From Tetradesmus obliquus (Eukaryota; Chlorophyta; Chlorophyceae; Sphaeropleales; Scenedesmaceae): a stretch of 64,000 bases of DNA. Of this stretch, positions 8,633-54,627 are shown in pieces; within the stretch, counting starts at the first letter, position 1, and each line of letters starts with the position of its first letter. The translations under genes and the position numbers were made by a program. The stretch covers positions 3,153,501-3,217,500 of the forward strand of contig CP126204.1 of NCBI GenBank assembly GCA_030272155.1, written 5' to 3'. The notes under the pieces were generated by a model. That model saw only the letters and a list, made by a program, of their open reading frames with translations. It ran no database searches and was not told where the DNA came from.

Positions 8633-11600
8633 CGGCTGCTCTTTGTTGACAGCTGCACACTAGCACAGCCCACGCTTAACGGCACACTGTGAACCCCTTG
8701 GTGCATGGCAGCAGCAGCAGCAGCTGCTGCTGCATTGCTGCTGCTATTGCTGCTGCTGCTGCAGAAGCGGCACCAGAACCAGTGCTGGGCCCATGAGGCA
8801 TCCAGCAGCTCCAATGGCAGGCCAGTGCAGCGCACCATGAACAACCACGCAGCAGCCTGCGCACGATTGAATTTGAGTGTGCAAAAAAGGGCAGCAAGCA
8901 CCGAGGAAAGGCCGTCAATGCAAACATATATTGCGCACAAGTAGCTGCAGGCGCAAACACAATGCCGCGCACAATTAGCTGCAGGCGCAAACACAATGCC
9001 GCGCACAAGTAGCTGCAGGCGCAAACACAATGCTGCGCACAAGTAGCTGCAGGCGCAAACACAATGCCGCGCACAAGTAGCTGCAGGCGCAAACACAATG
9101 CCGCGCACAATTAGCTGCAGGCGCAAACACAATGCCGCGCACAAGTAGCTGCAGGCGCAAACACAATGCTGCGCACAAGTAGCTGCAGGCGCAAACACAA
9201 TGCCGCGCACAAGTAGCTGCAGGCGCAAACACAATGCCGCGCACAAGTAGCTGCAGGTGCAAACACAATGCTGCGCACAAGTAGCTGCAGGCGCAAACAC
9301 AATGCTGCGCACAAGTAGCTGCAGGCGCAAACACAATGCCGCGCACAAGTAGCTGCAGGCGCAAACACAATGCTGCGGACAAGTAGCTGCAGGCATGGAG
9401 GCTGTGGATTGCACATACAGCTCCACGGGTGTGTAGTAGAGTACTGTTGCAGCTGCTGCGCTGTTCATCATGCCACATGGTATGAATCACAAAGCAGCTG
9501 GCAGTCGATGGCTTCTGGCACAGCATGTGACTCACATATTCGTAACATGCTTGCACATTTCTCTTGTTGAATGGCCGCATCAGAAGCTAGGGTTGCAACA
9601 TAACATGTCACTGCTGCACTCACCGCAGTCGCTATGCTGGCCGTGGTGAACAGCAGGAACAGGCCCCATCCCCTCAGATGGCACAGCAGTGGCAGCGTGG
9701 CAAGCGTCCACGCAAATGCCTGCAGCAGGGACAGCAGCATCCACGACAACTACTTCATGCAGCAGCATATGCCAACTGCTTCAGCATGTGGCTCGAACAG
9801 GCAGCAGAAGCGGCAGCGGCAGCGTGGCTAGCGTCCACGCAAGCGCCTGCAGCAGAGGCAGCAGCACACTAAGTTTCAGCATCGGGTGATGATGAGCCAC
9901 CTCAAGTATTGAAGATCTGCCCTGCACGTGCCCAGCTGCTGTGCTGCTGCTGCACAACCCTATCTTCACATATTATTGTAGGACTTGCCGCTTGGCTGCT
10001 TGCGTGCCTCCACGCACTCTCTCTGCATGTCGAGCATGCCGCAGCGCTGGCCAGCAGCTATGCATCAAGATGCTTGCAGGGCGCAGCATGCGGCATTGCC
10101 GTGCAGCAACAGCACCTGCAGCACCTGCCAGCACACCATCATGCCAGTGGCCAGGACACCAAGCCTGGAGCGTGCGGCATGCGGCATGCAGCATGCAGCA
10201 TGCAGCATGCAGCATGAAGCACGGAGCATGAAGCATGCAGCCCGACGCCTCAACCCAACAGACTGAAGCCCGAAACATGCGACTGAAGCCAGACACAAGC
10301 AAGCTCTCCGCATCACCTGCAGCGACTGCCAGCACACAATCATGCCTGTGGCCTGTGGCACCAAGCATGGAGCATCAAGTATGCAGCATGCAGCACGAAG
10401 CATGCAGCATTGCAATGCATCCTGGCATCACCTGCAGCAACTGCCAGCACACAGCCAGTAGCCAGGGACACATGATCTTGCCGGTGCTGAGGTCAAGCAT
10501 GAAGCATGCACCTCAACGCCCGAAACATGCACACTGAAGCAAGTAAGCTCTCCGCATCACCTGCAGCGACTGCCAGCACACAGCCAGTAGCCAGGGACAC
10601 ATGATCTTGCCGGTGCTGAGGTCAAGCATGAAGCATGCACCTCAACGCCCGAAACATGCACACTATAGCAAGTAAGCTCTCCGCATCACCTGCAGCGACT
10701 GCCAGCACACAATCATGCCTGTGGCCAGGGAGCGCGTGGGCAGCGGCTGCACCTCAAAGGCGTGGATCCACAGCAGCTCGTTTGCTGCGTAATCCAGGCC
10801 CTGCAGGGACACAGCAGCAGTGAGGAAAACAATAGTCAGGGACACTGCAGCGGCTGCACCTCGAACGCGTGGATCCACAGCAGCTCGTTGGCAGCGTAGT
10901 CCAGGCCCTGCAGGGACATGGACAGGGACAGGGACACAGCAATGTAAGGACAGGGACACAGCAACGAGCAGCACAACCAGTCAGGGACACATCAGCGGCT
11001 GCACCTCAAACGCGTAGATCCACAGCAGCTCGTTGGCAGCGTAATCTAGGCCCTGCAGGGGCACAGCAGCAGTGAGGTACACAGCAGTGAGGTACACAGC
11101 AGTGAGGTACACAGCAACTAAGAGACATGACAGGGGCTGCACCTCAAAGGCGTGGATCCACAGCAGCTCGTTTGCTGCGTAGTCCTAACTCTGCAGATAC
11201 ACAGCAGCAGATGCTGGCTGCACTTGACTGCATCATCACTGCACTGTGCTCTATAGCTAGAGCGTTACAAAATTCCAGGCCACATGCACGTGGCTTGTAC
11301 GTTCACTGCAGTTGCGCAGCAACAATGCTTGATACTGATCCATTGGCAGGCACAGCTGCGCTACTCACGCAAGCGAGGCTCAGCAAAGCCGCTACGGCCC
11401 AAGCCCATGTAATGGGCAGCTGGTTGGCACCACTGCCACCCACTTCGACACACCTGTTGCCAGATGGATGCATGTAGAAATCCTTGAATCAATCCTTACA
11501 GGCTGACTACCACAAACTGGTGCAGCACCTTGAACCCATTTGCCAAAACTCTTCAATTCAACTGCACAGCTGCTTGCAGCACTTACGCAAGCGAGGCTTA

Positions 11601-13265
11601 GCAGTGCAGCCACGGCCCAAGCCCATGTGATGGGCAGCTGGTTGGTCCTGCCGGCTTGATAGTACACCAGATGGATGATAAGAGCCACCGCGATGTAGCA
11701 TCCGGCAGACGCCAGGCAGCCTGCTGCGGTGCCGCCTCGGCGGCCGACGGTGTCTGCTGCTGCGACGGCCAGCACTCCACCTGGGCAGCAAAAACATCAG
11801 GTGGTGCACAAATGCAGCAGAAAGTGGATGCAAATCGACATGTCAAAGTACATCCCCTGACCCAGACGCTGCTAACACTCATGCAAGACGAGCCGCTCAC
11901 TCAGCCGTGTAAGCGGCAGTGCATTGACTGGACGCTTTACTGCCGTGCATATTGCCGTTGCAGTGCCCACGTTGTCGCCTCATGTCAACTCACCTACAAC
12001 ACAACCGCATGAGATAAGCACCATGCTGATTGCACAGCCCTTCAGCTGGCCGTACCCCATCACATAGAAAACCCTTCAAGAATCATATCACGGTTGCACA
12101 CTGACCCACCGTGCCCACCAGCGAGCACCTTGTTCGTGGCATTGTACTGACGCATTGTACTTCTGCAAGTGTTTCTGCAGGGGTGCAGCGCCAAACTCCC
12201 ATGCTCATTGCATAGCCCTTCAGCCGGCCATACCCCAGCTCCTAAAACACCACGTTCTGCGCTCCAAGCAAGCAAGCGAGCCAGAGAGCGAGGCAGTGTG
12301 GCGGCTGCCGCAGTGATGGCTTGCCCAGTGCTGTGAAGCAGAGAAACACGGCGCTGCCGCTCACCTACAACGCAGCCGAAAGAGAAGAGCACCATACTCA
12401 TTGCATAGCCCTTCAGGCGGCCATACCCCAGCGCGTAAAACACCGGGAAGGCACTTGTGCTCAGCAGCGCGCCGCCTGTCGCACTGGCCACAGTCACGAG
12501 GCCCAAGCCTGCAAAAAGGGCGAGCTGCGCCTCCCGCTGCTGCTTCAGGGCTTGAAACTGCGTGCGGGCCTGCATATGCATACAGAAAGGCACGGCGGTG
12601 GTGCTCAGCACGTGTGACAGTGTTGAAGTGACCAGGCCAGGCCCGAAAAGAACGCCAGCTGCGCCTCCCGCTGCTGCTTCAGGGCTTGTAATTGCGTGCG
12701 AGCCTGACGATGCATACAGAACAGGCACGGCGGTGGGGCTGAGCAGCGCGCCGCCTGCTGCACATGCGGCTGTGATTTGTTACGTTTTACATTCAACAAA
12801 GGAGTGAAAGCCTCATTCAGGTGCCAACGAGAGGCTCATAGAAGGAGGAAATTTCAGTCATGAGGCCCAGGCCTGCAGAGAGGGCCAGTTGCGCCTCGCG
12901 CTGCTGCTTCAAGGCCTGAAACTGCGTGCGGGCCTGTTTACGCATACAAAAAGGCACAGCGGTGGTGCTCAGCACGTGCGACAGTGTTTCAGTGACCAAG
13001 CCAGGCCTGCCAAAAGGGCAGCTACGCCTCGCGCTGCTGCTTCAGGGCTTGAAACTGCGTGCGGGCCTGGGGATGCATACAGAAAAGGCACGGCGCTGTC
13101 ATGCAGGCCCTGGCAGGATACAGCCAGAGATTGCGGGGTGTGCAATTATCACAGCACAACAGGCCTTGCCACGTGCCTTATCGATCACAACAACGCAATC
13201 TACATAAACTCACCGAGGTGAGCAGCTGTGAGGCCGCCAGGATCTCCTCACAGCGCATAACCCTT

Positions 13266-13335
<70 letters not shown>

Positions 13336-13548
13336 GCAGCTGCTATTAAACACCCGCTGGCACACTCACCGAGGTGAGCAGCTGTGAAGCAGCCAGGATC
13401 TCCGAAAACTCCTGCTCAGTGCTCTGCAGCATGCCGCGCAGCCGCTGCAGGGCCAGCCGAGCCTCTGGCAGCTTGCCGCGCTGCAGCAGGCTGCTGGGTG
13501 TTTCTGGCAGCCACAGCAGCAGCAACACGGTCACTAGCGCAGGCCTGC

Positions 13549-13597
<49 letters not shown>

Positions 13598-13661
13598 TGT
13601 GTCAAGGGCCACTGGCAGCCACAGCAGCAGCAGCAGCACGGTTACTAGCACAGGCCTGCAG

Positions 13662-13696
<35 letters not shown>

Positions 13697-14038
13697 CAGC
13701 AGCAGCAGCAGTAGGAGTTGTAGCAGCAGCCGCAGCAGGAGCGGCAGTAGCCAGTTGTTAAGTGCCTGTGGCAGCTTGCACCGCTGCAGCAGGCTGCTGG
13801 GTGTTTCTGGCAGCCAGAGCAGCAGCAGCACAGTCACTAGCGCAGGCCTGTGCAGCAGCAGCAGCAGCAGCAGCATGATGGAACCTCTAGTCAGTTTGCC
13901 TGCTGCAGCAGGGTGTCCGTTCACATCTATCTGCTGTCACTGACATTCGGCCTGCTGCCACAGTGTCATTGCTGGCTGTCAACTTGCTGCTGCTCCACAC
14001 ATCATTAGCAATGTGCATCCCTCCTCCTCCTCCTCCTC

Positions 14039-14070
<32 letters not shown>

Positions 14071-16240
14071 CACCATATGCCAAAGACTGGCACCAGCCGC
14101 CACTGCCAGCTGCGCTGCTCCAGTGCCAGGCCAAAGGTGAGCAGCGCAGAGCACATGAAGCCCACGGCACGGCCCATGGCCTGACAGGCTGCTAGGGTGC
14201 CTCGCCAGTTGAAGGGAACCACTTCTAGAACTTCAAGCAGCGGGGCCTGCAAAGTTTGCATTTGAGGTTCAAACCACCACCAGCAGCAGCAGCAGCACAC
14301 TAGTTTAGGGTTCTCATGCAGAGTGCCATGCAAGGTTTGCTGGCACACAGCACATGAAGCCCACAGCCCGGCCCATGGCCTGACAGGCTGCTAGCGTGCC
14401 TCGGCGGTTGAAGGGCACCACTTCTAGTACTTCAAGCAACGGGGCCTGCAGTGTATGTGTGTTGAAGTTGAGATTTTATGGTGTAGGGTGGATGATTTGC
14501 GACGATGCCTTGAAGCATCGGACAGGTGCGGTGCGCACGTGCTCAGTAACAAAAGCAATGCGGTGGGCTGCACAACCTGACCTGAAACTAATATAACAGT
14601 AACACTAACAGTTATCACACCTGATGTAACAGTCCCACAGAGAAGCCTGTGACAGCGCGGGCAATCCAGGCCTGAGCTGCACTGTAGGCAGTCACCAGCA
14701 GCACCTGCACCAGCGCAGGAGATAGGTATAAACAGGCACAAGCTGCCGGGTTTTGCGTCGGATGTATGAAGCAACTGGCTTGTGCTTTACTAACACAGAT
14801 AACATCACGGATACGGACATCATCTTGTAGCACTGCCCGCAGCAGCACGAGCTGAGCAGTCAGCGACACTGGCCGACTCAAGGAACCAACCTTTGCCAGC
14901 ACAAACATGTCGCAGCCCAGCGCCACGCTCGGCGTGCGGCCCCGCCGGTGTGACAAACATACACATGCGCTTGGCACTGCGCATTCCCATTGTGTAAGCC
15001 CTTGTCCGCCGGGTAATCTGTGCGGTCCACTGCCGAACGACTTGCACATATCACGGATACCGACGCCATCTCGCAGCACTGCCAACAGCAGCACCAGCTG
15101 AGCAGTCACCCACACTGGCAGACTCAACGAACTCAATGAACCAACCTTTGCCAGCACAAACATGGCGCAGCCCAGCGCCACGCTCGGCTTGCGGCCCCGC
15201 CGGTGTGACAGATGCGCCGCCGTCAGTGCGCCCAGCGCAGCAGTAGCATGCGGCAGCGCCAGGTACAGCTGCACATCGGCCCTGTGGAAGGTGCAGAAGG
15301 GGCGGAAGCCTGTGACGTGGCGGTCTTCTGGATTGCCCAGTCCCAGGCCCGTCTGGATCTGCATCACAGGTTTGATGAGGACAATGCAGGGTCATGCCGG
15401 AGTTACGGCGGTAGGTCAGCTGGCAGACCAACGGACATTACATCCCTAGTCATGCGGCAGGGGCGTGCAAGGGCGTGTGAGGAAGGAAGGCGGGTGCTGG
15501 GTGCAGGTGCACGTCAGGTGTATGGAAAGTGCAGAAGGGCCGGAAGCCTCTCCCATGCCAATCTTGCGGGTTGCCCAGCCCCTCGCCGGTCTGCATCTGC
15601 AGGTTTGTGTGCCTTTTGAGTTTGACATTTTAGTCCAAGTTTGAGGGTTCAATATTTTAAATTTTGAGCACATGCACTGAGGGGTTTGGCGTTGATTTTG
15701 ATGTGCAAGGGCTCAAACCTCGGGGAACCCCAGTTCTTCTGGATGTGCAAGCCAAAGGCCAGTCTGAAGCTGCTTGTTGGTTCAAGTCAGCATTCAATGC
15801 AGCAGATGTGTACAGGGATGTGGGCAAGCACAGCAACACAGCAGCAACAACTGCAAGCAACCAAGCTGAGAGCTGTTCTTCAGCACCGGCAGTGGCGTAT
15901 GGTGAGTGCCCTTTTGATGCTGCCGGGTGTCACTCGTGTGTCACTGCTGCTGCTGCTGGGTGTCACTCGTGTGTCACTGCTGCTGCTGGGTGTCACTTGT
16001 GTGTCACTACTGCTGCTGGGTGTTACTCGTGTGTCACTGCTGCTGCTGCTGCTGCTGCTGGGTGTCACTAGTACTACTGCCCTGCCTGCCCACCTGAGGG
16101 AAGAAGCTGTCCCTAAAGCCCTGGATGAACAGCGCTGAATCACCATCAGTAAACCCTACCAGCCAGCCCGCCGACATGGCAACCCACACAACCATCCAGA
16201 TGAATGGAGTCACTGCAGGCGGGCGCCGCTGCTGCGCCAT
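8503..16240 (-). CDS. divergent MFS sugar-transporter-like protein
   Basis: Ten exons join in phase to about 481 aa, the usual length for MFS hexose transporters: 16240-16094, 15358-15146, 14704-14621, 14246-14074, 13544-13370, 12569-12365, 11780-11587, 10800-10690, 9719-9624 and, less surely, 8553-8503. Landmarks in order: TM1 with GWLVGFTDGDS in place of the usual G..FGYD.G; SHRRGRKPS after TM2; ARAVTGFSVGLLHQ (TM4) followed by a .NWRG loop; WLPETPSSLLQRGKLPEAR at the TM6 end, typical of sugar porters; ADTVGRRGG after TM8; FEVQPLPTRSLATG, matching the PSEIFPLEVRS.GQS region; and a terminal PPET like the PET of this family. The QLTGIN motif of true hexose transporters is replaced by a Gly/Ala-rich TM7, so the substrate is unknown. 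Introns carry many partial exon copies. It belongs in a membrane, plasma membrane or organelle. Confidence 0.75.
8941..9392. repeat. 34-bp minisatellite, 13 full copies
   Basis: A 34-bp unit starting GTAGCTGCAGGC recurs exactly every 34 bases from 8941 to 9382, with a partial copy after it. Units differ at only two or three sites (gtag/ttag, gcc/gct). It lies in the last intron of the transporter gene. Because 34 is not a multiple of three, all frames cycle through the same peptide set, which creates long but meaningless open frames. Confidence 0.95.
10177..10239. repeat. 7-bp tandem repeat (GCATGCA-like), 9 units
   Basis: Nine consecutive heptamers related to GCATGCA, with variants GCATGCG, GCATGAA and GCACGGA. 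It lies in the intron after transporter exon 8. Confidence 0.85.
11071..11115. repeat. 15-bp tandem repeat, 3 units
   Basis: Three perfect copies of AGTGAGGTACACAGC lie between two partial copies of transporter exon 8. Confidence 0.9.
11990..13255 (-). repeat. exon echoes of transporter exons 5 and 6
   Basis: The 5' part of exon 6 (peptide QARTQFQALKQQREAQLA) recurs upstream of the real exon at about 13067-12990, 12940-12860 and 12707-12627. Its 3' part with donor recurs downstream at about 12245-12180 and 12062-11994. The 3' end of exon 5 with its GTGAGT donor recurs at 13255-13213. One upstream exon 6 copy has a TAG stop inside it. Confidence 0.75.
13272..13335. repeat. (CTG)21 tract
   Basis: Uninterrupted CTG triplets in the transporter intron that follows exon 5, between the real donor and a copied one. 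Confidence 0.9.
13600..15620 (-). repeat. exon echoes of transporter exons 2, 4 and 5
   Basis: Copies of the 5' part of exon 5 with acceptor run leftward from about 13856 and 13650; the first keeps WLPETPSSLLQR and then differs. A copy of the 5' part of exon 4 lies at about 14446-14340. The 3' part of exon 2 with its GTTGG donor recurs at about 14965-14888. The 5' part of exon 2 recurs upstream at about 15605-15536. CAG/CTG tracts separate several copies. Confidence 0.7.
15925..16071. repeat. minisatellite with variable CTG insert in transporter intron 1
   Basis: The core GGGTGTCACTCGTGTGTCAC recurs at 15925, 15958, 15988, 16018 and 16060, separated by three to seven CTG-type triplets. Unit lengths are 33, 30, 30 and 42, so units differ mainly in triplet number. 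Confidence 0.85.
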
Positions 16241-16335
16241 GCTGCTGCTGGTTCAGCTTGAGCTGCTGCTGCTGCTGCTGCGGTTACTTGGCAAAATAAT
16301 GTGAAGCTGCTCACTTGGCGTTGCTACATTTTACT

Positions 16336-33292: not shown

Positions 33293-35531
33293 CCTTGAAA
33301 GAGCTAATGATGGATCGGATTATGTTTGGATGTGGCGGACAGCGACAAGGACTGGAGTTTTCGGGTGTTCGCTTGGCCGAGACGTCGGAGAACTTCACAT
33401 GCAGCAGTACAGATCACAGCACGCATTCGCGCACTTGATGATACCCTATTTCGGCTTCCTCATCCTGAAACTAGTTGGCCCCAGAGCGATCTGTAGGAGG
33501 TGCGTAGGAGGGATAACCAATCGTCTCCTACAATCACACCCGGTCGCACTTGCAGCTCAACTGAGATCACAGCTCCACAAAACAACATTTAAAGGTGATC
33601 AAAGGTTCTTATGCGGTTTAAGTAGCTCCCTGACGTGTTGAAGGCGATGCGAGGATGATGCGTCCGCCGCAGATGGGTGGGACCAGCGTAGTACGCAGTC
33701 GAACCTTATAAGTTTATTGCAATATAGTTTTGATAGGGGATGCTGTTCCTCAGGGTGGCTATGTCTGCTGGTCACCTGCATACCCAGGCCTATCAGCTGT
33801 GCCAGCTCAGCTGCAAGCAGTCAGGCATGGCCTTTCACTCCACGATGCATCATTGACAGTCCTCGATTACATTATATTAATGCTTGTCAGCCAGGTTCGA
33901 GGCCCTCAGCTGTGTATAAGCTACCTGCTATGCCAGCCTGGCAGGGCAGCAGCACTGCGTAGCTGAGCTAAGCAGCATGCACACTACTACAGTTTCCTTG
34001 CAGCAGCGGCGAGAGGACACACACTTGGAGGCATTTAAACACCAGAGCCTAACATGCATCTGCGAGCAATGCCGTTGTGGCAGACTTGTACCAGTGCAAG
34101 CCGCAAGTGAGACTCTCACCGGCCCGGTGCGCCGGGCGCAGCTACTAGCTGTAGTGATAGCCGCTACTAGCTGCTGCCCAGGTCCCACTCTGCAAGTCAC
34201 AATAAAGATGCCCTGGCATTAAGCAAGCTGCATGCCATGTGCGCGCTGCTGCACCAGGTGCATGCCATGTGCGCGCTGCTGCCACCAGGTGCACACAGAC
34301 TGCTGCAGCTATCCATCAGCATGCTCGATGCTCAGTAACCAGGTTGTGACAACACGTCCCCATCATGCACAGCACGTGGCACCATGCCAGTGCCTGCTGG
34401 CCTGCAGTGCCTGCTGGCCTGCAGTGCCTGCTGGCCTGCAGTGCCTGCTGGCCTGCAGTGCCTGCTGGCCTGCAGTGCCTGCTGGCCTGCAGTGCCTGCT
34501 GGCCTGCAGTGCCTGCTGGCCTGCAGTGCCTGCTGGCCTGCAGTGCCTGCAGTGCTCACATGCAACATGCCTGCTCGACTCTGATTACAATCGCATACGC
34601 CGTGCACCAGCACCCAGCATCACTGCTGCAACAACTGCTGCAAAACAGTACACTGGAAGCAACACAGCGCTGCTCCGTCGGCCTGCATTCAACAGGTGCC
34701 GCATGTTGCCAGCCAGGGCTGCTGCTGCTGCTGCTGCTGACAAGCTGCAGGGGAAAGAGATGCTGAGTACGAAGCTGAACCAACCAAATCTAACTATGGC
34801 AGCACCTGCAAAGCAAAAGCCTTTAGGCATCAACTGCTCCTGTCTGCACAGCTGCTGCAAACACTCCTCGCAACACGGAGCCAATGAATTCCTTTTGCGT
34901 GTACCAACAATGCCTTAGCCCATTGAACCCCAACCAGCTGCTACCCTACCACTGCAGCATGCCGCTGCATGCTGCTTTAGCGCAAAGAAACAGAGAATCC
35001 TGCAGCACAACTCCCAGTTTACGCCTTGTGCGCTGCTGCAAACTGTGTGGCCACCGATTGGTCTGGCGTGCTGCTGCTGTCGCGCGGCAGCAGCTCGCAT
35101 TGCGCGTAGTGCTGCACGGGTCAAGCAGACAGGCATCAGCAGGCAGCGCAGCACAGAGAAGCACGTCTCACCATTTGTTTCAGAGCCTGTGGAAGCTACC
35201 ATGGGCAGACAAGTGATGCAAACAGCGTGCAGCTGCTGCACCTCAACCGTTCTTCCTTTCCATCCTGCATGCCGTGTTGCGCCTCAGACTGCTCTGGACA
35301 GGACCCTGTTTGAACCTGTTTGTTTGCCTGTCTGCGCTGCAGCCAGGGTCCGTGCTGCATCTGTACAATCACAAGGTGTTGCACAACCTCATTCGCCCGA
35401 CTATGCTAGAAGGCTTCCATGCAGATGTAATCACTGTGAAAACAACCCAGCACCTGCAGCAGCTGGTCAGCCAGCATCAGCGCCACCATGCTCTCCACCA
35501 TGGGCACCGCAACAATCAGACTACGATGTTG
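33293..35531. other. intergenic, no gene supported
   Basis: Lies between the CBM20 gene start and the chorismate synthase 3' end. About 33293-33740 is relatively CAG-poor and may hold the CBM20 promoter. The rest contains a minisatellite and a 30-bp direct duplication (34231-34260, 34261-34290). The terminal exon of chorismate synthase may hide in 34.9-35.5 kb. Confidence 0.35.
34391..34552. repeat. 17-bp minisatellite, 9 copies plus a partial
   Basis: TGCCTGCTGGCCTGCAG is repeated head to tail without change from 34391 to 34543, followed by a 9-bp remnant. The perfection suggests recent expansion. Open frames across it on both strands only translate the repeat. Confidence 0.95.
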
Positions 35532-38500
35532 TTATATTGTTGTCATTGCTATTCTCTTCATTGTAACAGCCCGCACCTGCAGCAGCTGGTCGGCCAGCAC
35601 CAACGCCACCATGCTCTCCACCATTGGAACAGCGCGCGGCACCACACACGGGTCGTGGCGGCCACGTGCACGCAGCTCCGTCTCCTCCCCTGCACTCACA
35701 AAGTTTGCATTTTTCATGCTAGACTGTCCATCTTTACATGTTAGACACATCACGGTTGTCAGCATACACAGACACACTAGGCTGGTAGTCCTGAAGCTTT
35801 GCCGGATGACTGCTGCTCGCACGCCTGCCGCCAGAAACTACGTGCCAGCTGCCGGGCACTGTTCACGCAATGGTGCTGCACCTGCCCCTACAGTGCTGAC
35901 GTACCTACGTACGCGCTGCTGATCCACGCATGCTGGATGTGCAGCAGAAATTTGACCCACCTTCGCGCGTGGCTGGCTGCAGCTGTGCTGTGCATGCTGG
36001 GTGCAGTAGCATGTGTCAGCAATCATCAGGCAACTTTCAGCACACAGATACCAGGCCCACCTTCACGCGTGACTGTCTGCTGCTTGATGCCGATGGTTGA
36101 GGTGGGCTTGAATGCCACCTTGATCACGATGTCCTCGCCATTGCTGATGCCACCCTGCAGCAACAGCAGCAGCAGCAGCAGGTGCAAGGCCCGCAGCAGT
36201 TGCAAAGGTGCGCAATACAGCAGCACCAACAGCACCAACAGCATGGCCACTGTCCTAGATGTGCTGCAAGCAAACCAAAACCAATGCTAGCAAGGCCTGA
36301 CATCAGCAGTACTTCACCAATCTTCAGCGCTACAGCTGTGTGCATTCCTTGTCGATGACAATAGATAAGTGAAACGCACGCAAGGCAGCGGCTGTGTCAG
36401 AACCTGCACACTGTGCTACTGGATGAGTCGACCTGCCCGCCGTACAGTGTCAGCACAAACCATACCTGGATGCCGCAAGAGCGGTTGGTGCGTGTGCGCA
36501 CTGCGCCACCCTCCATGTAGAAGGCAGTTGCATACATGTGGCAATTGTACTTTTACATTCAAACTTGACTAAAGTAATGAATATTTATTGCAATTACCTG
36601 AATGCCACCAGAGCGGTTGGTGCGTGTGCGCACCGCGCCGTCCTCCATGTAGAAGGCAGTCGCATACATGTGGCAATTTTAAGTTCTTTCTAAATTGTAA
36701 AATTATTTCAAATAGTCATTTGAATTACTTAATTATTAATTTAAATTGTAATTGTAATTTTACCTGGATGCCGCCAGAGCGGTTGGTGCGCGTGCGCACT
36801 GCGCCATCCTCCATGTAGAAGGCGTCGTTGTGTGCGCTGCCGGTCATGCGTGAGCCGCTGAAGCCGCTGCCGATCTCAAAGCCCTGCAGAGTGTAACAGC
36901 ACAACAGCAGCAGCACATGCGTCAGCAAATGACATGCTTGGGGCGCAACCAGTCATGCGCGAGCCGCTGAAGCCGCTGCCGATCTCAAAGCCCTGCAGCA
37001 GCAGCACACCAAGAACAGAAAGTGCTAGACTCATGACACTGGTGCTGGAGCAGCTGCACCACAATGGGCACATGGCCGTCGTGAAACATGAGCACAGCTC
37101 AGCGCAGGCTCTGCAGCAGGTGACAGCTGTCTTTGGTTGAGGCTTGCCCGACATCAAACCCTGACTGGCTCAGCAACTCTCCAAAACCCCGCACCTTGGT
37201 TGCTGGCAGGCTCAGCATGGCTTACGCAAGCTCTGCTTCCAGCTTGTCGAACACGGGTGTACCCAGGCCCGTGGGGCGGCTCCTAATGTTACAAAAGCTC
37301 AAAGCCTTAGCCCCGGCACAAGCAACACACGCAAAACCCTCGCACCTTTGTGGCTGGCAGGCTGAGCATGGCTTTCGCAAGCTCTGCTTCCAGCTTGTCA
37401 AACACAGGCGTGCCCAGGCCCTTGGAGCAGCTCCTATATGTTGGAAAAAGCTCAAAGCCTTATTCCCGGCACAAGCAATACACGCAAAATCCTCGCACCT
37501 TGGTTGCTGGCAGGCTCAGCATGGCTTTCGCAAGCTCTGCTTCCAGCTTGTCAAACACGGGTGTGCCCAGGCCCTTGGGGCAGCTGCGCACCACGCATGT
37601 GACCACGCCACCGCAGCTCTCGCCGCGCACCCGCACGTCATTGATCACTGCAGGCAGGCGGCAGCAAAGGTGTGTGGGACATTTGTCAGCTATGCAATGG
37701 GTGGTGTGTCAGCACTTCTTTGAAACATACAAACGCATTGATTTGACAACAAACAAACGCACATCATTGATCACTGCGAACGGCACAAAGGGAGCATGCA
37801 GCGCAGTGCAACAGTCAGTACAGTGCAGCAGAGTCAGGCATTGCCTGCCGACCTTATGCCGCAGCAGATGGTTCAGTGCAAGACTGCAGCACCTGGTGCC
37901 TGTGTTGCTCTGCTGCTGTTGCCGGCTGCTGCGTCTGTATGCTAGCGGCTTCAGAGCTTGCTCAAGCTGCAGGTAGTTTCTATTGACGGCGCGAGCCGCC
38001 TGCTGCTCTCAGCACGGAAGCGAATCCCGACATGCCTCAATTACAACAGCAAGGACACAGCTACTGCTCTGCCGCTCCCACAGCAGGCCTTGCTGCTGCT
38101 GCTGCTGCTGCTGCCGCCGCGCAGCACTACTGCACCAGCCTCCGGCTGCCAGAACTGCTGCTGCTGCTGCTGCTAGTGCAGACAACTGTTTTTGCTGTTG
38201 AACTGTTTGCTGCTGCTGCTGCTGCGCACCGTCAATCATCTTCTGTGCTGCCTCCTGGTCTGGGCAGCGCACGATGTTGCTCTCCACATCCTCCATGGTG
38301 AATGCTGCGTGGTCCACGTTGCTCTCCACGTCCAGCACACCACTGACATACGCCAGGATCTGCAAAAGGTGGTACACAGCACATACACATAACGTATTTC
38401 ATATGGCGAAATGCATGGTGAACGAGGCGTGGTCCACGTCGCTCTCCACGTCCAGCACGCCACTCACATACGCCAGGATCTGCAACATGGAGCACTGCAA

Positions 38501-38690
38501 ATGCACACATCCTATTTCGTACCACGTCCTCCATGGTGACGGCCAGGATCTGCAGCATACGATAAAAGAGAGACAACAGCATGTGAGCACAGCGCAGCAC
38601 ATTGCATGCATGGTGGACGCTGTGGTCACGCTGCTTTTCCACGCCCAGCACGCCGCCGACATATGCCAGGCTCTGCAGCTTGCAACATGT
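35449..38690 (-). repeat. exon echoes in chorismate synthase introns
   Basis: Exon 2: acceptor-side copies upstream at about 38690-38640, 38552-38524 and 38485-38420. Exon 3: donor-side copies downstream at 37433-37345 and 37281-37192, spaced about 152-153 bp from each other and from the real exon. Exon 4: one acceptor-side copy upstream (36995-36942) and donor-side copies downstream (36660-36597 and 36525-36465). Exon 6: a donor-side copy downstream (35512-35449). The intact exons alone give a complete enzyme. Confidence 0.85.
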
Positions 38691-43123: not shown

Positions 43124-44668
43124 TGATGCAGATGATGGCTCAGCTGTAGGTGGTGCTGCTGCAGCGGGCAGTAGTTATGCCGAACCAGCAGCAGCGGCGC
43201 CATCCGCAGCAGCAGCTGCTGATGGCAGCAACAGCAGCAGCAGCAGGCGCTGTGCTGCTTGCTTTGTCACAACACGCATCCTGGTGGTGGATATCTTGAG
43301 CCACAGAATACGCCCTCAGCAGATTGCCGGTGGGTTCAGGGCTTTGGGTTTTTCTACGGCACCCTGTAGCAGCTGGATGGTGAGCAGTGTACAGATCATG
43401 TCTGCTGTTGTTGATGCACGCATCTGGTGATGGTACTTGAGCTGATTTAGCGGCGTGCTTGTTTGCAGTTCCTTCTGCACACCCGTACCTGTTGTGTCAT
43501 GTGATGTGATGGGCATGTGCAGGGCGTGCTTGTTTATTGTGCACAGCGCCTGCGCAGGACGCATGGTATGCATGAAGCAACCTGCTTGTTGACTGTGTGT
43601 TGGCTCACATACTGCTGCTGCTGCTGCTGCTGCTGCCGCCAGGCATGATCATCCTCAATGCCCACAAGGTCACCGACAGCAGCGGCGAGGGTTTTGCGGT
43701 GCGGCTGTACCGCCAGGGCACAGGCCAGGGCTTAAGCCTGCCTGGGCTGTGTGGGGGTGCCGGCAATGCTGCGGGGTTCCTGCGGGCGTTCAGTGACAGC
43801 GCGAATGCCTTCGCTGCTGGATTTAATAGGGTGGAGAAGGTGCGTGGTGTGTGGTGAATTGATCAGCAGCAACATCTGCCATAATAAAACAGTGGATATT
43901 TTGTTGGTTCCTGTGGGCCTTCAGTGACAGTGCGAATGCCTTCGCTGCTGGCTTCAACAGAGTGGAGAAGGTGATTGTAACATGTTGATTGTTGGCTTTT
44001 CCTGCTGCACCGCTAGCTGCCATTGTCTCAGGTTTACTCTTGCTGGGCCTTGCTGTGGATGTTTGTGGTGCTTAGCATGCCTGTCAGTACTTGGTTCCAG
44101 CGTCACTCCTTGCATCCTCTGCATATGCTGCACGATGATTGTCACAATCTCGCTGCTACATCCGTCGATGCTGTTGTGGTGGTGGTGTGCTCGTGCAGGT
44201 CATGAAGGCGCTAGGCGTGCGGCGGCTGCTGCTGTTCCCGCGCTTCCATGCCAGTGTGAAAGACAGCCTGGAGTCACATCCGCCAGAGGTGCGTTATCTT
44301 TCTTGTTACAAATGCATCTGTGCTGCCAATGTCAACACATGTCATCTATTCCATCCATGTCCACCGGCCAGTGTGAAAGGCAGCCTGGAGGCAGTTCTGC
44401 CAGAGGTGCGTCACATTTTGCAACAGCTTTGGCAGCGCCTGGGTTGGAGGTCCCAAGGCAGCTGCCTGGGTTGCCTGGGATTTGTGTTGCCGATGCAGTG
44501 CATTTGTTATTACGTGGTGTATGGCTGGGACAGTGTGCTGTCGCGGGGCACGCATGACAGTGCAACACGTTTGCATCTTGAACTGGCTTTGCTGCTGTTG
44601 GCTCACAAGATCTTGCCTGCTGCTGCTGCTGCTGCTGCTGCTGAAACTACTTGAATGTAACCTTTGCG

Positions 44669-44700
<32 letters not shown>

Positions 44701-47352
44701 AGCTGGAGGAGTGGGAGGCTGATGCCTCACCGGGGCAGCTGTCACTGCTGGAGGCGGTGAGGGAGGTGCTGGCGGCACTGCTCAAGGACCTGGGCAGGTG
44801 AGTGGGGGTGGGACTGAGGCAGTTGTTACTTTCAGGCATGTAACATGTTACAATCTGTCACTGCTGGAGGCGGTGAGGGAGGTGCTGGCGGCTCTGCTCA
44901 AGGACCTAGGCAGGTGGGCAACCCAGTTGTCATTGGTACGCCTAGCTTGGAATTGTGGGCACATCAGTCCGATTGACAGGTTGACAGCGGCAACAGCACT
45001 TGGTGCACGCTTGACCTACCTGCTCGCTTGGTCTCATCTGTTCTGCATCTTCAACATCATGTAGGTGAAACGCCGAGCTTGACCTGGCCGATTCGGCAGC
45101 AGCAAAGCTCTTGGTGCACGGTTTGGCATGTCTGCTATCTTAACTCCAGCTGTCATGGTGGTTTCAGAAATGATGCAGGTCAAATGCCAAGCTTGATCTG
45201 GCTGACCTGGCAGTAGCAACAGCGCTCAGTGCAGGGCTTGTTGTGCTGCTCTCTGAGGCTCAGCTGTCATGCGATTTAAATTTCATGCAGGTCAAACGCC
45301 AAGCTTGACCTGGCTGACTTGGCAGCAGCAACAGCGCGCGGTAGTGACCCTTCAGCCTTGCTGCGGCCGCTGGACAGGGCGGTGCGGCAGCAGCTGGAGC
45401 CGCTGTGGCACACCCTCAACTGGCGCAGCAGGTGAAATCTGGCTTCAGGTTTCGGTTCGGTGCCTGGTCAATCAAACTGTATGTTCTGTAGCATATTACT
45501 TTGCTGCAGTGTGGACAGGGCGGTGCGGCAGCAGCTGGAGCCGCTGTGGCACACCCTCAACTGGCGCAGCAGGTGACACAGGGTTGAGGGTTTACTGCTG
45601 GGTGAATGATGTGTGATTCCACCTGTTATGAACATCATTCGTTTTTAGTAACATGGCATAGCCAGCATCACCACCAGTGCGCAGAGCCTGTCATCGGCAG
45701 TGAAGGGTTGCTTGGCAACTGCTGTCTGAATAAACATGGTGCATTGCAGCAACATAACAAATCCTAGCATGACCACATGCTGTAGCTGGTTTCAGGAATG
45801 CTGGGTTACACCTGTCTGCATGACAAACCGTGTTGTTCATATCACTAGGTACTGCATGGCCTGCAGGCTTGCTCTGTTTGCAGGACTGCTGTGCGTGACC
45901 TGGCCAGTGTGCAGAGCCTGTCATCGGCGCTGATGGGTTACGTGTGTATGAGCCACTCAGTCCCTGTCATGTGCCTGCTGTCACTTGCTGCAACCCACCT
46001 GCTGCAGGACGGCTGTGCGTGACCTGGCCAGTGTGCAGAGCCTGTCATCGGCGCTGATGGGTTACGACGCCGTCACTTTCCTGCAGCACCTGGAGGGCCT
46101 GCGGCTGAGTGAGGGCGGCAGCAGCATATGGCTGTACCACGAGGCGACGCACGTCATATACGAGCAGGTACATATGTGTATAGATCTGTGTTTGCAGTTG
46201 CCTGTTTGGAAATGCTAGCTAGCCTGTGGCATGAGGCGACACACGTCATGTTCGGACAGGTATGCTGCGCTTGCTGTAACCACGCTTGTCTGTGACACAG
46301 TGAGGGCGGCGGCAGCATCTGGCTGTACCACGAGGCAACACATGTCATCTACAAGCGGGTATGACACATGTTATGTACCACAACCTGCTGTTGTAGTTGT
46401 TAGAACGTACAAAGTCGGTTGCCTGACATGTTGCAGCAGCATATGGCTGTACCACGAGGCAACACATGTCATTTACGAGCAGGTACATATGTGTTGTGGT
46501 TCTGTGTTTGCAGCTGCCTGTTTGGATATGCTAGCGAGCCTGTGGCATGAGGCGACGCACGTCATGTGTGGACAGATATGCTGTGCATGTTGTAACCACG
46601 CTTGTCTGTGACACAGTGAGGGCAGCAGCAGCATCTGGCTGTACCACGAGGCAACGCACGTCATCTACGAGCTGGTATGACAATCCAACACCCTGTAACA
46701 CACTACATCTGTTTGCAACTGTTTCAAGTGTTGAGTCTGGATAGGATGGAGATGTTGATGCTGATGCAGGTCGATGGGTGACGTGGTGCGGGTGTGGATG
46801 TGTTGTGATTTGATGAGAGCGATTGTTGTAACCCAGGACATGCTTCCTGTGCAGTGATGGCGGCAGCAGCATCTTGTTGTACCACGACCGCCTCGGGAGC
46901 AAGGCTAACACTGCTGCTGCTGCTGCTGCTGCTGCATGCAGGCCCGCAGGCGTGTCTACAAGATTGTGTACCCCTCGCATGGTGCAACCGGGACCTCAGT
47001 AGCAGCAGCAGCAGCAGCAGGCAAGCAACGAGGCGGCCAGAAGCGTGGCAGAGCTGCTGCTACTGCAGCTACTGCTACTTCAGGTGCCGCTGCTGCTGCT
47101 GTTGCTGATCAGGCTAATGACAGAGCAGCCAAAGCAGCCCGCAGCAGCAACGACAGCACAGCACCTGCTGCAGCTACTACAGCAGCAGCAGCAGCAGCAG
47201 CGACAGCCAGGATTGAGCCTGTGCTTGAGTGGCCTCCCAAATGGGAGCTGCTGCAGCAGCTGCTGGATGAGGTGCAGCAGGTGAAGCAGCAGATGCTGCA
47301 GCAGGCGCAGAGTGCTGTTGTGGTGCCAGAGGGAGAGGAGGATGTGAAACCT

Positions 47353-47384
<32 letters not shown>

Positions 47385-47388
47385 AAAT

Positions 47389-47453
<65 letters not shown>

Positions 47454-47842
47454 GCGGCAGCCGCCAGGGGTAGAAGTAGTGGAGCTGCTGGACTCATCAG
47501 AGGAAGGTGATGAGACAGCTAAACAGATAACACAACAGCAGCAGCAGCAGCAGGAGCCTCCTGGGCCGAACCGGCTCACTGCGGCTGGCGTGGCGGCACT
47601 GCTCGCTGCTGCTGCTGCCCCTGTGCTGATTGTCTGCAAGGAGCTGCATACGCTGCATCAGCTGCAGCAGGTTGTGGCACAGGGACCTGCAGCAGTGATG
47701 CAGCAGCAGTTCAACGCATACTTGCGTACGCAGCTGCCGGCAGCAGCGGCAGGCAGTGGCAGCAGAGGTAGAGGCGGCAGAAGCAGCAGCAGGCGGGGCG
47801 GGAGGGGCCGGGGCAGGGCAGCTGGCAGCGTGGCAGGTAGTG

Positions 47843-47875
<33 letters not shown>

Positions 47876-48326
47876 CTGATGCTGCAGTGCAACAGCAGCA
47901 GCAGCAGCAGCAGTTTCAGGGCGGGTTGGGGGCTGGGAGAGGCGGCAGCAGCAGCAGGGGTAGAGGCAGGGGCAGGAGAGGCGGCAGCAGCAGCAACAGG
48001 TGAGGCAAGGGGCGGCATTGTGTCTACAGAAGATGCAGCTTTATTCCGGTTGATTACTGGGCCTTCACCAAGGAGATTAAATCACGCTATGCATGCCCGC
48101 AGTCTGCTTTGGTGTTGCTGAGTCGCTTAGACTGCCTAGTTACACCTGCAGCTTGCATCTATGGCCAGCTTACAACGAACCATGCTGCTGCTGCCGCTGC
48201 CACCGCCGCTGCTGCTGATGCAGTGGACGTGGCTACCGTGAGATCATATGGGCAGGCAGGGGCCCCTCAGTGGCAGCAGCAGAGCAGCAGGCACTGGCAG
48301 CAGCAGCACGGGAGCTGCAGCAGCAA

Positions 48327-48363
<37 letters not shown>

Positions 48364-49595: not shown

Positions 49596-49630
<35 letters not shown>

Positions 49631-52600
49631 CTGTGTGCCATCGTGCCGCCTGCCTGCCTGCCTACCTGCCGCCACGCGCAGCTGCTGCCGCCGCTAGCAG
49701 AGCAGACCCAAGCGCTGCAGCTGCAGCAGCACAACACCGGCCGCAGCGCGCTAGCCCCGGGCCCCCACGCCCCAAACCCTAATGACCTGTGGCTCGACGT
49801 CTACTCAGCAAATGCGCTGAGCAGGGTCGGGGGTTTAGGGAGGCGGCTAAAACCCGTGCCGTGCCGGCTGGTGGTGGATGTGCGCGAGTTCATGTCGGGT
49901 CTGCCTGCGGTGCTGCACCAGCAGGGCTTCCGGCTGACACCCATCACCCTGGAGGTATGCGTGTTATACTGATTTTGTCTGTTTTGGGGTTCTACTCCTG
50001 CTGCTTGTAGCGGCGATGCCAGTTTTCTGTTGCCAGCGTGTTATGATACCAATTCTCCCAGCATGGTTGGTGTGGTGGATGTGCATGAGTTCATGTCGGG
50101 TCTGCCTGCGGTGCTGCACCAGCAGGGCTTCCGGCTGACACCCATCACCCTGGAGGTACGGTGTTGTGGTTGGTTCATATGGCTCTTGGCGCTGTTGTTG
50201 GTTTGAACTGCTTGCTAGTAGCAGAGGTCTCATTGAAAAGTGGGTGTTGCAATATGTAATGCACATGTCTGCTGTTGCGTGCAAGTGAATTGCTCTGTGG
50301 TCAGCTTGGGTTGTGGTGGTTGAGGTGCGAGTTCATGCCGGGGCTGCCTGTGGTAGTGGTGACCTTGTTAAACAAACTGTGGTAAACCATGCCATCTGTG
50401 CTTGTTGAACCCTAAACCCAGGTCGGCGACTACGTGCAAAACCCCGAGGTTGTAGTTGAGCACAAGGGCCTGCCCGACCTTTTTCGACAAACCCTGCCAT
50501 CTGTGCTTGTTGAATTTTAATCCCAGGTCGGCGACTACGTGCTAAGCCGCGAGGTTGTGGTTGAGCGCAAGGCCCTGCCTGACCTGTTTGCCTCGCTGGG
50601 CAGTGGCAGGCTGTACCACCAGGCTGAGGCCATGGTCAAAGGCTACAAGACACCAATGCTGCTCATCGAGTTTGACGGGGACAAGGTAAGTTTGGAAACG
50701 GGTTATCAAGGTTTTTTGTTGAGCTGTTAACACGCGCCAACGCTGCTGCTTGATTTCTATGTGCATATCATGGGTAGCCTGCTGAAACTTTTACTCAAGG
50801 TTTGTGTTCAGGGTGTGGAATGGTGGATGTACCACCAGGCTGAGGCGATGGTAAAAGGCTACAAGACACCCATGCTGCTCATTGAGTTTGATGGGGACAA
50901 AGTGAGTTAGAAACGAGTGTCCAAGGTTTTTTTTAACTGTTAACACCCGCCAACGCTGCTCCTTGATTTCTACGTGCATAAGGTAGTCTGCTGAAACTTT
51001 TACTCAAGGTTTGTGTTCAGGGTGTGGAATGGTTGGATGTACCACCAGGCTGAGGCGATGGTGAAGGGCTACAAGACGCCCATGCTGCTCTTTTGGTTTG
51101 ACGGTGATAGGGTGAGCAATGGGGTTGAGTTTACATTGGCGACAGTAACACAGCACTGGCTGCATGCTCCTGAGATGCTGCTCAGTGAGTTGATGTGAAG
51201 ACTGTGATAAGCCGGTAGGCTTTCACTGTTGTCTACGCAGCAGCGCTGAGTGAGTGAGTGAGTGACTACCCAGGCAGCTCTGCAGCTCCTGGGTAAGTTA
51301 AGGCTAAGAGGGTGTGTGTGGCCAGGGGCGGCGCCCCTGGGCTCCACACCCTCTACCCGTCCTCGGATTCCCACGTCTGTTAGCAGTATAGCACTAGCGC
51401 CTGAGCTTTTGTATATCGCTTCAACAGTTAGAGACCCGGCTGCGTTGTGGCGGCTGGTGACGGTAGTAGATAGCCTAGGGCATCCGCTGATGGCGTGGTG
51501 GCAGCTGTCTGTTTCACCACATCTGAGGGGGCACATGGGACTCTTTACCACACGGTAACGGTGCAACTGCTTGTGTGCCGGCGCTACGTCAAACCTACAT
51601 CCGATGGCTAGCTTTATGGTACGCAAGGAGACGCAAGGAGACCTTTGAGCTTGTTAGAAACATATGGCTGTATCTGTGCTCCATCTGGTCGCAGTGCCGT
51701 AGCCACTGCTCTGCGTAGTATGACTGTAGATTGGACATGCCGAACCACCTGTGCGTATGGGCTATGTCTCGCAGTGCATCTTCTAGGTTGGCCAGTGGTT
51801 CGTACATCGTGTGCTGAATGGACTTTCCATTTGTTTCTTTCTGCTGCTCGATGCGTCTATGTGGCCAATAGATGCTTGTGCGTAGGTTGCTGGGCCTGCC
51901 ATATTCATTGAGTTGGGTGGCAGCCACTTCCCCATTTGCCACGGCCACTGCTGCTGCATCTGCAGCTTCATTGCCTGCTATACCTGTGTGACTTTTGACC
52001 TTCCAGATGTGAACTGAGCCGGGTGCCGCTCTTATTGCTTCAACTATCCCATTTAGCACGTGGAGGTGTTCTGAAATATCCTGGGGACGATCCACCGCTT
52101 TTCTAATGCCAAAAGTCGACCCCAGGCTGTCAGTGGCGATGTGGACAGCGTTGTCTGGCTGGGTTATCAGAGGCGCTGCCTCTGTAAGTGCTTCATGAAT
52201 AGCTGCCAGTTCTGCCCTACTGATGGTGTTGACGTAGCTCAGGTCTGCATTGCCGTCCCTCTGTATGCAGTTGACGTACCACGTGCGTTCGTGCCTGCCC
52301 TGGGAGGCAGGCGTGTGCACCGCTGCGCCTATGCCTGGCCCATTGCAATTTTCGTCTTGTATCACGCTGCCGTCTGTGTACGTAAACGTATCCCACTTGT
52401 GCAGCAGTTCAGGGGGCGAGTCCAGCTGGCCCAGCCTGACTCAGTGTTGCTCTCTGAGCAGTTGAATCTCCTGAACCCCGAGGGCCGTGCTGGCCATGCC
52501 AAGCAGTTGGGCTGGTTTCCTGGTGTCCTGTGACTTGCGTTGGAACCGTTTGGATGCGTGTTACCCATCGTGCTTCCGTTAGGATTGAGTCTGTCCTGCA

Positions 52601-54627
52601 CCCGCCGAAGCCGGTGATCGCGTATTCTGCGTCGTCAAACTGACTGCGTAGGCTGTTTTTGTTGATTAGTTTTCTTGGCAGCGCCAGTTCTATGTTCTCT
52701 CTGAACTCTCGTTGCCACTCTCGATCCCACAGTGGTAGGTGCTGCTGAAAACCTGCCTCGTTAGCTATGGCTATAGCCTGAAGCCGCCAATGCAGTTGTT
52801 TACAGCTCAGCATAGCAGCGCTGCACAGCCCTCACAGGGTGACTATCCTTTTTGACACAGTCACGTGATCGACCCTGCAGGCCTTCTGCCTGACCACCCC
52901 TCGGAGGTGGCCGGCTGCGCTTGCTTGTCACTGGTGTCCAAACTCACGAATTGTTGTTCAGGTACGTCGCAGCATGCAATGACATTACTGCCATCTGCAC
53001 TGCTGCCCTCCCTCCCTCAGGCCTTTTGCCTGACTGGCGCCTTGGAGGTGGCTGACTGCACTTGTTTGTCACTGGTGTCCAAGACCCTGATGCTTTGTTT
53101 CCAATAGTGAATGACACTGCAGCTGCTGCCCTGCTGCTCCTCTGCAGGCCTTCTGCCTGACAGGCCGGTCAGAGGTGCCCGGCTGCCTTGACTGCAGAAG
53201 CCCACCAGCACGGCTGGTCATATGCTCTTCTGACACATCTGCCCCTGGCACTGCCTTCCCGCATTTCACTGCCCTGCAGGCAAATTGTCTGACATATGGA
53301 ACTGATGCCAAGGTTTGGCACAGTATGCTGCCATTCTCTGCATCTCATGCACAGCTAGTGACTTCAGCACGTGCCGCTTGCCCTCCTTCACTGCTTACCT
53401 GACACACTCGTTGCTGCAGGCCTTCTGCCTGACCGGCCCCTCAGAGGTGGCTGATTGCCTAGACAGCAGGAGCCCACAGGCACGGCTGGTGCTGCTGCTG
53501 CTGCACTTCCCAAAGCTGAGGTGAGCCCGCCATTGTGTATGATGCATTGACGTTTTGACGTCACTGTATTGTTATGCAAATCTAGTCTCTTGCCAACTTG
53601 TGTCACATTTTGTTGGCAGCTGGGCGCCGGTGGCGGTCCCCTTTTGGAGGCGATGCCAATAACTGCATGCGAAATGATGGCTGATGCATTCGACACACCG
53701 CGACATAGAACAGCTGGTGTGCACTCACAAGCTTTGGATCTGTGTGCGCATGTGGGCTGCTGATGTAGCCATCCGCCCTTGCTGTCTGTTGCGTCTGCTC
53801 GCAGGCTGCTGTGGTCCCGCAGCCAGCACGCTACAGGGGAGCTGTTCCGGCCTGTTCTGCACACCTTGTCATCTTGATGTCTGTTCACTGCCTTGTTGTC
53901 TGTTGCTTCTGCTCGCAGGCTGCTGTGGTCCCGCAGCCAGCACGCCACAGGGGAGCTGTTCCTAGCACGGAAAAGGAGCAACCAGCAGCCTTTAACCTGC
54001 CTGCGCACCTGCCTGCACAACCTTCTGCTGTCTGTTGCACCTTCACTCAGGCTGCTGTGGTCCCGCAATTAGCACGCCACTGGGGAGCTGTTTCTGGCCT
54101 GTTCTGAACACCTTGTTATTTTCTGTTTTCTGCCGCCTTGCTGTCTGTTGCGTCACCAGAGGGGAGCCGTTCCTGTCCCTGTGCTGGCTCTGCTCCTGGC
54201 TCTGTCACCCTCCTGCACAACCTTCTGCTGTCTATTGCGTCTTCACTCAGGCTGCTGTGGTCCCGCAGCCAGCACGCCACCGGGGAGCTGTTCCTGGCAT
54301 GTGCTGCACACATTGTCATTTACTTATGTTCACTGCCTTGTTGTATATTGCTTCTGCTCACAGGTTGCTATGGTCCCGCAGCCAGCATGCAACCAGGGAG
54401 CTGTTCCTGGCCTGTTCAGCACATTTTGTTGGGGGCCTTGTGGCTATTTATTTATCCGCCGCCTTGCTGTCTGTTGCGTGGCCACGCAGGCTATTGTGGT
54501 CCCGTAGCCAGCACGCCACAGGGGAGTTGTTCCTGGCGCTGAAGCGCAACCAGGAGGAGCCGGAGCCAGCAGCAGCAGCACTCGTGGGCCTGCCAGCCGG
54601 CAAAGCAGCAGCAGCAGGGGCTGGCGA

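Follow-up and report, generated by a model that had tools for sequence, protein, structure and literature searches.

In the AGGT model of intron gain (Rogers/Hellsten 2011, via PMC4974935, with a potato RdRp case), splicing removes the extra copy and leaves the peptide unchanged, as set out in the part of that source used here. A related arrangement is found in a 64,000-nucleotide stretch of the green alga Tetradesmus obliquus (contig CP126204.1, positions 3,153,501 to 3,217,500 of the forward strand; the whole stretch is hereafter the window), where the introns of four genes hold partial copies of adjacent exons, termed echoes here. As in the AGGT model so described, these are short tandem duplications within a gene, and their surplus splice signals come from a duplicated unit that straddled a border; unlike there, no new intron appears, and existing introns lengthen by serial partial copies instead, with arrays occupying 17 of the 26 modelled junctions of two genes, chorismate synthase and XPF. 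The defining AGGT arrangement, in which the first copy provides the donor and the second the acceptor of the same new intron, was not encountered among the measured echoes of these two genes, which are embedded in introns that continue past them.

Other described systems share individual features with the echoes. According to part of a study of break fill-in by Pol alpha-primase (PMC8355091), small duplications are the commonest kind of human insertion below 100 bp. The echoes resemble these in being direct, local and independent of repeats, but just 1/87 filtered pairs here is spaced below 92 bp, and in both modelled genes the duplicated stretch always takes in some exon. Like the decoy exons and pseudoexons treated in portions of PMC12017769 and PMC8819188, they are exon-like intronic segments with splice sites; unlike these, they are partial, one-sided near-copies of the adjacent exon, and are known here from sequence alone. 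They differ from tandem exon duplication, since the copies are one-sided rather than whole exons with both splice sites, and from insertion of introners or transposable elements, since their spacers share no more than four weak matches. Core-Reinhardtinia algae are described in parts of PMC8226300 as having conspicuously long introns of unexplained length; the likeness is one of green algae with long introns, and those parts of the paper make no mention of exon echoes. Among the titles and abstract openings listed by searches of the open-access literature, nothing was found on serial junction-spanning exon echoes.

Self-comparison of the window by masked BLAST returned local repeats that are all direct and lie within four multi-exon genes: a transporter (9.6-15.6 kb, minus strand; Sugar_tr domain match), a CBM20 gene placed at ~30-33 kb (minus; CBM_20 match, E 1e-34), chorismate synthase (35.4-39.8 kb, minus) and XPF (43.6-55 kb, plus; ERCC4 domain within exon 50527-50685). 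Six joined chorismate synthase exons translate without stops (the 3' end lies outside the model), as do two XPF blocks of four exons each once joined, the first XPF exon standing outside the joined test. The nearest chorismate synthase homologues are P0001 (95% identical) and P0003 from Scenedesmus sp. PABB004 (89%); P0001, by name apparently transcriptome-derived, aligns with the joined parent exons and contains no echo. We measured 29 partial copies at 17 junctions (five in chorismate synthase, 11 in XPF and one in the CBM20 gene), with the input restricted to pairs with a clear junction and with two intron bases included in the homology placement; the XPF acceptor array upstream of exon 45291-45431 was excluded. 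A further ~18 transporter copies (10 acceptor-side, 8 donor-side) were identified by eye, and the presence of partial exon copies in the introns of all four genes, as originally reported, is thus confirmed. A stricter scan, ungapped and filtered for low complexity, retains 13 adjacent pairs in the transporter, 2 in the CBM20 gene, 6 in chorismate synthase and 17 in XPF, and zero at 16.5-29.9, 33.1-35.3 and 39.8-43.3 kb.

Acceptor-side copies lie upstream of the parent exon in 13/13 measured cases and donor-side copies downstream in 16/16, exactly as the preliminary description had it, and the by-eye transporter copies agree with the same sidedness. Masked comparison found no inverted pairs within 2 kb, either in the window or in 22 other loci; a 68-bp palindrome (91%) at window 164-231 appears solely in the unmasked comparison. 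This sidedness had been put forward as a positional rule and a sign of tandem duplication. The rule holds in the measured copies but adds nothing, as it is a forced consequence of local duplication across one splice junction with the exon left whole, and is no discovery. When an acceptor segment is doubled, only the second copy connects to the remaining exon, so that the partial copy falls upstream, and the mirror image applies to donors; a segment with both splice sites gives a whole-exon copy, and a segment inside an exon gives a longer exon. That no mixed cases occur therefore speaks for local duplication rather than scattered re-insertion, and implies no additional law. Local direct duplication is secure. 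The accompanying claim that every copy keeps its splice site stands for the measured set, with AG or GT intact in 29/29, but fails in one of the random loci considered below: at L025:7104-7459, one apparent donor junction occurs three times, with GT in the first, presumed parent, and AT in the two apparent echoes downstream.

The regular inclusion of exon sequence in the copies is not accounted for by geometry. All 17 masked-BLAST arrays in the two modelled genes span a junction (5 in chorismate synthase and 12 in XPF, 7 in its N part and 5 in its C part). When random duplications were simulated using the observed step sizes, the share of all events falling inside one intron was 58% for chorismate synthase, 53% for the XPF N part and 79% for the XPF C part, and the junction-spanning share was 29%, 37% and 15%, respectively. 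Restricted to the tolerated classes, namely intron-only and junction-spanning events, the expected junction share is 33%, 41% and 16%, leaving 59-84% intron-only. The all-junction outcome would arise by chance with a probability of ~1e-9, a rough value that assumes equal detectability. No intron-only array of echo size is on the masked-BLAST list for these two genes; Tandem Repeats Finder reported a weak intron-only repeat of a different kind at 37712-37770 (24 bp, 2.5 copies), plus low-complexity arrays.

The exon and intron parts of the copies also behave differently. Across the 29 pairs the exon parts differ by 9.3% on average, and gapped identity over intron bases 7-40 averages 0.57, versus 0.48 in mismatched pairs (95% point 0.57). 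For the nearest copy per junction, the intron side exceeds the 95% null in 6/17 cases and does not in 11/17, with exon parts 79-100% identical across the 17 and 83-98% identical in the 11 whose intron side is at background. At XPF 45573, 61/61 exon bases are identical beside an intron side of 0.58, barely above the null; further sharp cases, as exon/intron identity, are XPF 44914 (97%/0.35), 45884 (98%/0.53) and 50156 (98%/0.53) and chorismate synthase 36992 (98%/0.55), and in random locus L020 (4884-4954) a perfect block of >55 bases follows TGCAG, with weak similarity before it, as judged by eye. By our estimate, neutral decay would make the intron side ~1.5x as different as the exon side. 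The sharp cases are far above this, and plain tandem duplication with neutral decay is insufficient. Repeated tandem duplication across junctions, the process first proposed, is thus upheld by the direct orientation, the multi-copy arrays and a 315-bp super-unit in XPF, but leaves unaccounted for a homology that often ends at the splice site and the missing intron-only duplicates of two genes.

Flank similarity was expressed as z scores against locally shifted controls. Averaged over the 29 adjacent pairs, intron-side similarity is genuine at 6-36 bp (1.5; standard error, SE, 0.4), weak at 36-66 bp (0.55) and absent further out (0.03), and it is weak, 0.8 (SE 0.5), in the six pairs of at least 94% identity. 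When parent is compared with echo (17 pairs), similarity of the exon-outer flank does not rise above background (mean z -0.3), in keeping with a breakpoint, and that of the intron flank does so on average (1.6, SE 0.5). The flanks of all blocks retain residual similarity (z 1.2-1.5 versus control ~0), which makes it plausible that the homologous unit was originally longer and has been retained in its exon part. The homology/period ratio is at least 0.75 in 29/80 pairs and below this in 51/80. When echo is compared with echo in the three two-echo donor series, the spacer-side z values are 5.9, 3.1 and 8.4 and the intron-side values 2.5, 0.0 and -0.4. The repeated unit in these series is spacer, exon end and GT, the pattern that unequal exchange between exon parts would give.

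The spacing of the copies was taken from 87 adjacent pairs, 38 from the window and 49 from 9 of 19 random loci, after removal of low-complexity and period-3 repeats. Adjacent copies are at least 92 bp apart in 86/87 pairs (the sole exception is 40 bp), and 34/87 distances fall within 105-134 bp; unfiltered BLAST gives shorter steps too (40-83 bp), mostly in simple or minisatellite-like arrays. Geometry does not explain this floor near 92 bp. Summed, the adjacent-copy steps make up 1,024 of the 3,053 bp that five chorismate synthase introns comprise, and ~1,855 of the 3,383 bp of six XPF introns. A transposon or introner origin of the spacers was rejected, as the 87 share no family and yield four weak matches only, involving one L020 spacer with three L025 spacers. 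An inverted template-switch origin was likewise rejected, inverted matches of at least 12 bp numbering 0/46 against 0.4 expected. Direct matches to the surroundings were found for 26/46 spacers, 16 of them at an offset near their own pair's period, and none for 20/46.

For splicing, the echoes present series of near-identical sites. The pyrimidine fraction is 0.61 at 16 real acceptors, 0.68 at 21 decoy acceptors and 0.46 at 754 other CAGs of the gene regions (decoys versus background, p 3e-11); the decoy acceptors look usable, perhaps partly through descent. Reading from the exon on into a donor-side echo meets a stop in 14/15 cases, and 13/27 distances are divisible by three. Because splicing at an outer donor would in most cases spoil the message, the innermost pair has to prevail. 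Around 12 acceptor-side copies, donors score lower than background, and acceptors near donor-side echoes are weakly enriched (p 0.03). A cassette-exon reading is unsupported, the copies being one-sided and the acceptor-side echoes lacking a nearby donor. Signs of decay comprise in-frame stops in echoes 37194 and 54051, indels at 38672 and 53021, and the AT for GT of L025. Third positions account for 95/155 differences, with 108 synonymous versus 47 nonsynonymous, counts that are not independent and in which the parent can change only silently. Sites differing between decoys are distributed 14:12:38 by codon position (third 38/64), and single-copy differences 8:11:19. This third-position excess, weakened by silent changes in the parent lineage, base composition and non-independence, is no more than suggestive of coding selection on the echoes.

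To sample the rest of the genome, 23 fixed-grid 10-kb places were taken, of which one was all N and 22 were usable. Direct pairs (E 1e-6, up to 2 kb apart) are present in 16/22, some of these being coding or minisatellite repeats rather than echoes. Exon anchoring in these loci was not established by crude coding prediction, though examples inspected by eye display it. Local direct pair density ranges from 0 to 50 per 10 kb, with the maximum at L030 (G000:C16:1500001-1510000), whose 50 pairs occur with CAG/CTG runs in what is by eye apparently an LRR-type gene on the minus strand. Automatic junction census proved unreliable in these loci: a crude run called 18 of 69 pairs consistent and 6 inconsistent and left 45 uncalled, and we weigh it neither way. 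The six inconsistent pairs were viewed; one is an in-frame coding repeat, two were apparently scored in the wrong orientation because of CAG runs, one fits once its changed donor is recognised, and two are unclear. Eleven of the 41 pairs without a convincing junction were also viewed, and at least five show one by eye (L020 491, 4884, 7979 and 8828; L022 6098). Tandem repeats within apparent coding sequence lie at L027:8728-9066 and L018:7837-8400.

We lean tentatively, without calling it probable, towards two combined processes: local duplication that hits junctions, and exchange or refreshing of exon parts from the live exon. In the first, supported process, short direct duplications with a commonest step of ~105-135 bp would strike exon-intron borders repeatedly, each leaving the exon whole with a partial copy outside it and lengthening the intron by one step. 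Paired-nick and patch-repair models exist for tandem duplication in plants. In the second, which we infer, exon parts would trade sequence among themselves and with the live exon through gene conversion and unequal exchange, possibly templated by spliced cDNA. This would preserve their likeness and let them multiply into series, with intron parts drifting down to background level. Homology would then end at the splice site, and intron-only duplications would fade from view. From each series the spliceosome would need to select, as under exon definition, the innermost sites, those giving the shortest exon and the longest intron. Refreshing is preferred because exon identity reaches up to 100%, silent sites included, beside background flanks, because array 46168 holds four haplotypes (all combinations at two sites), which is compatible with exchange, and because donor series have expanded in the manner that unequal exchange would produce. 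Four points weigh against it. The four-gamete pattern comes from one array and could reflect recurrent mutation; ordinary DNA conversion should homogenise intron-only repeats too, and an exon-specific twist is required; decoy pyrimidine tracts equal or exceed real ones (0.68 versus 0.61), which refreshing from the exon does not predict; and coding overlap in the random loci is weak, at 45/70 pairs against 38.3 expected from a crude coding prediction. A further, more speculative possibility, which we consider unlikely, unites exon-anchored intron growth on a ~105-135 bp ruler with echoes that evolve in concert with the exon through exon-specific, possibly RNA- or cDNA-templated, copying; the series of look-alike sites would be maintained, the innermost pair always chosen, and inner decoys perhaps removed first as nested introns.

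The main rival to duplication with refreshing is that selection maintains the echoes, whether they serve as decoys, as poison exons or as inner splice pairs that nested splicing takes out first. The retention of GT/AG in all measured copies despite their mean exon divergence, the strength of the decoy pyrimidine tracts over background and the bias of differences to third positions all speak for it. But acceptor-side echoes have no nearby donor and donor-side echoes weak acceptors, making them mostly incomplete cassette exons; at least two echoes carry in-frame stops, older ones carry indels, and two apparent L025 echoes have lost GT. Third-position bias can moreover leak from a constrained parent exon, and the strong tracts may have been inherited, given that many of the decoy acceptors have a common origin with the real one; we judge selection an improbable explanation. 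Similarly doubtful is a history in which junction-spanning segments were simply duplicated in tandem and then decayed neutrally, with nothing more involved. Several pairs do retain the intron side (37345, 50422, 46483), and decay is visible as in-frame stops and indels in older echoes, but neither the background intron similarity of 11/17 nearest copies beside well-preserved exon parts, nor the lack of echo-size intron-only arrays in two genes where they are expected to dominate, fits such a history.

Less likely again is copying bounded by the exon itself, for example through exon-positioned nucleosomes or RNA-templated break repair that copies an exon edge up to the splice site. The spacing floor and the concentration of distances at 105-134 bp would suit it, as would the conserved GT at block 3' ends (42/80 sense versus 19/80 antisense, p 3e-4), spacers that are mutually unrelated save for the four weak matches, and the finding that, in the three donor series with a pair of echoes, the match between the final echo and its neighbour runs mainly as far as the splice site. 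However, conserved AG at block 5' ends is not enriched (32/80 versus 28/80 antisense), pairs with homologous intron sides exist too, and the mechanism is hypothetical. That mis-joined haplotypes produced false repeats is very improbable: the data do rest on a single assembly, but its contigs are long (17 for 104.7 Mb; 104,662,953 bases), repeats recur in 16/22 grid loci, and the multi-copy arrays show graded divergence.

Table 1. Parent exons, echoes and associated features, in window positions
Feature	Position	Strand	Basis
Chorismate synthase exon 2 (parent)	38230..38359	-	joined model, homologues
Acceptor-side echo of exon 2, 66 bp exon part, upstream	38414..38479	-	measured
Older acceptor-side echo of exon 2, with indels	38638..38672	-	measured
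Chorismate synthase exon 3 (parent)	37499..37647	-	joined model
Donor-side echo of exon 3, intron side homologous as well	37346..37432	-	measured
Second donor-side echo of exon 3, in-frame TAA	37195..37281	-	measured
Chorismate synthase exon 4, parent of both-side echoes	36764..36883	-	joined model
Acceptor-side echo of exon 4, upstream; intron side at background	36952..36992	-	measured
Donor-side echo of exon 4, downstream	36598..36657	-	measured
Second donor-side echo of exon 4	36466..36525	-	measured
Chorismate synthase exon 6 (parent)	35577..35689	-	joined model
Donor-side echo of exon 6	35454..35501	-	measured
XPF exon (parent), outside joined translation	43645..43839	+	
Donor-side echo of XPF exon 43645..43839	43906..43970	+	measured
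XPF exon (parent)	44199..44288	+	joined model
Donor-side echo of XPF exon 44199..44288	44367..44405	+	measured
XPF exon (parent)	44703..44797	+	joined model
Donor-side echo of XPF exon 44703..44797, exon part 97% identical, intron side at background	44855..44913	+	measured
Acceptor-side echo array, period 114, upstream of XPF exon 45291-45431	45056..45290	+	repeat listing, not among the 29
XPF exon (parent)	45291..45431	+	joined model
Donor-side echo of XPF exon 45291..45431, exon bases 61/61 identical, intron side barely above background	45512..45572	+	measured
Acceptor-side echo of XPF exon 46008-46167, 98% identical	45884..45942	+	measured
XPF exon, parent of both-side echoes	46008..46167	+	joined model
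Three donor-side echoes (junctions 46359, 46483, 46675), partly 315-bp super-duplication	46299..46674	+	measured
XPF exon (parent), model start arbitrary	49701..49954	+	joined model
Donor-side echo of XPF exon 49701..49954, exon part 98% identical	50072..50155	+	measured
Acceptor-side echo of XPF exon 50527-50685, near full-period repeat	50422..50484	+	measured
XPF exon, ERCC4 domain (parent)	50527..50685	+	joined model
Two donor-side echoes of XPF exon 50527..50685 (junctions 50902, 51112)	50828..51111	+	measured
Three acceptor-side echoes of XPF exon 53420-53520	52881..53218	+	measured
XPF exon (parent)	53420..53520	+	joined model
Five acceptor-side echoes of XPF exon beginning 54490; one (54051) with in-frame TAG	53805..54411	+	measured
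Donor-side echo in CBM20 gene, parent exon end 31528	31341..31413	-	measured
Sugar-transporter-like gene, ~18 echoes	9686..15601	-	by eye
Transporter decoy acceptors	9846, 10907, 11052, 11190, 12703, 12933, 13066, 14445	-	

The window holds several other repeats. A large inverted repeat at 237-7768 / 55674-63312, with pieces 70-87% identical, flanks the genes, and the filtered ungapped scan found no local echoes inside it. Positions 31014-31181 and 32196-32363 share 64% DNA similarity and are read as two CBM20-type domains, an older duplication separate from the echoes. Long CAG/CTG trinucleotide runs of up to ~27 units lie at 6337-6408, 13270-13344, 57072-57151, 60610-60674 and elsewhere, and a 34-bp minisatellite (13.6 copies, 96%) occupies 8933-9394.

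These data identify the echoes as a concrete, countable route of intron lengthening. They also constitute a natural experiment in splice-site choice, in which near-identical sites stand in series and only the innermost pair keeps the frame in most tested cases. If exon-limited similarity is true genome-wide, it would imply exon-specific copying or selection within introns, neither of which is expected.

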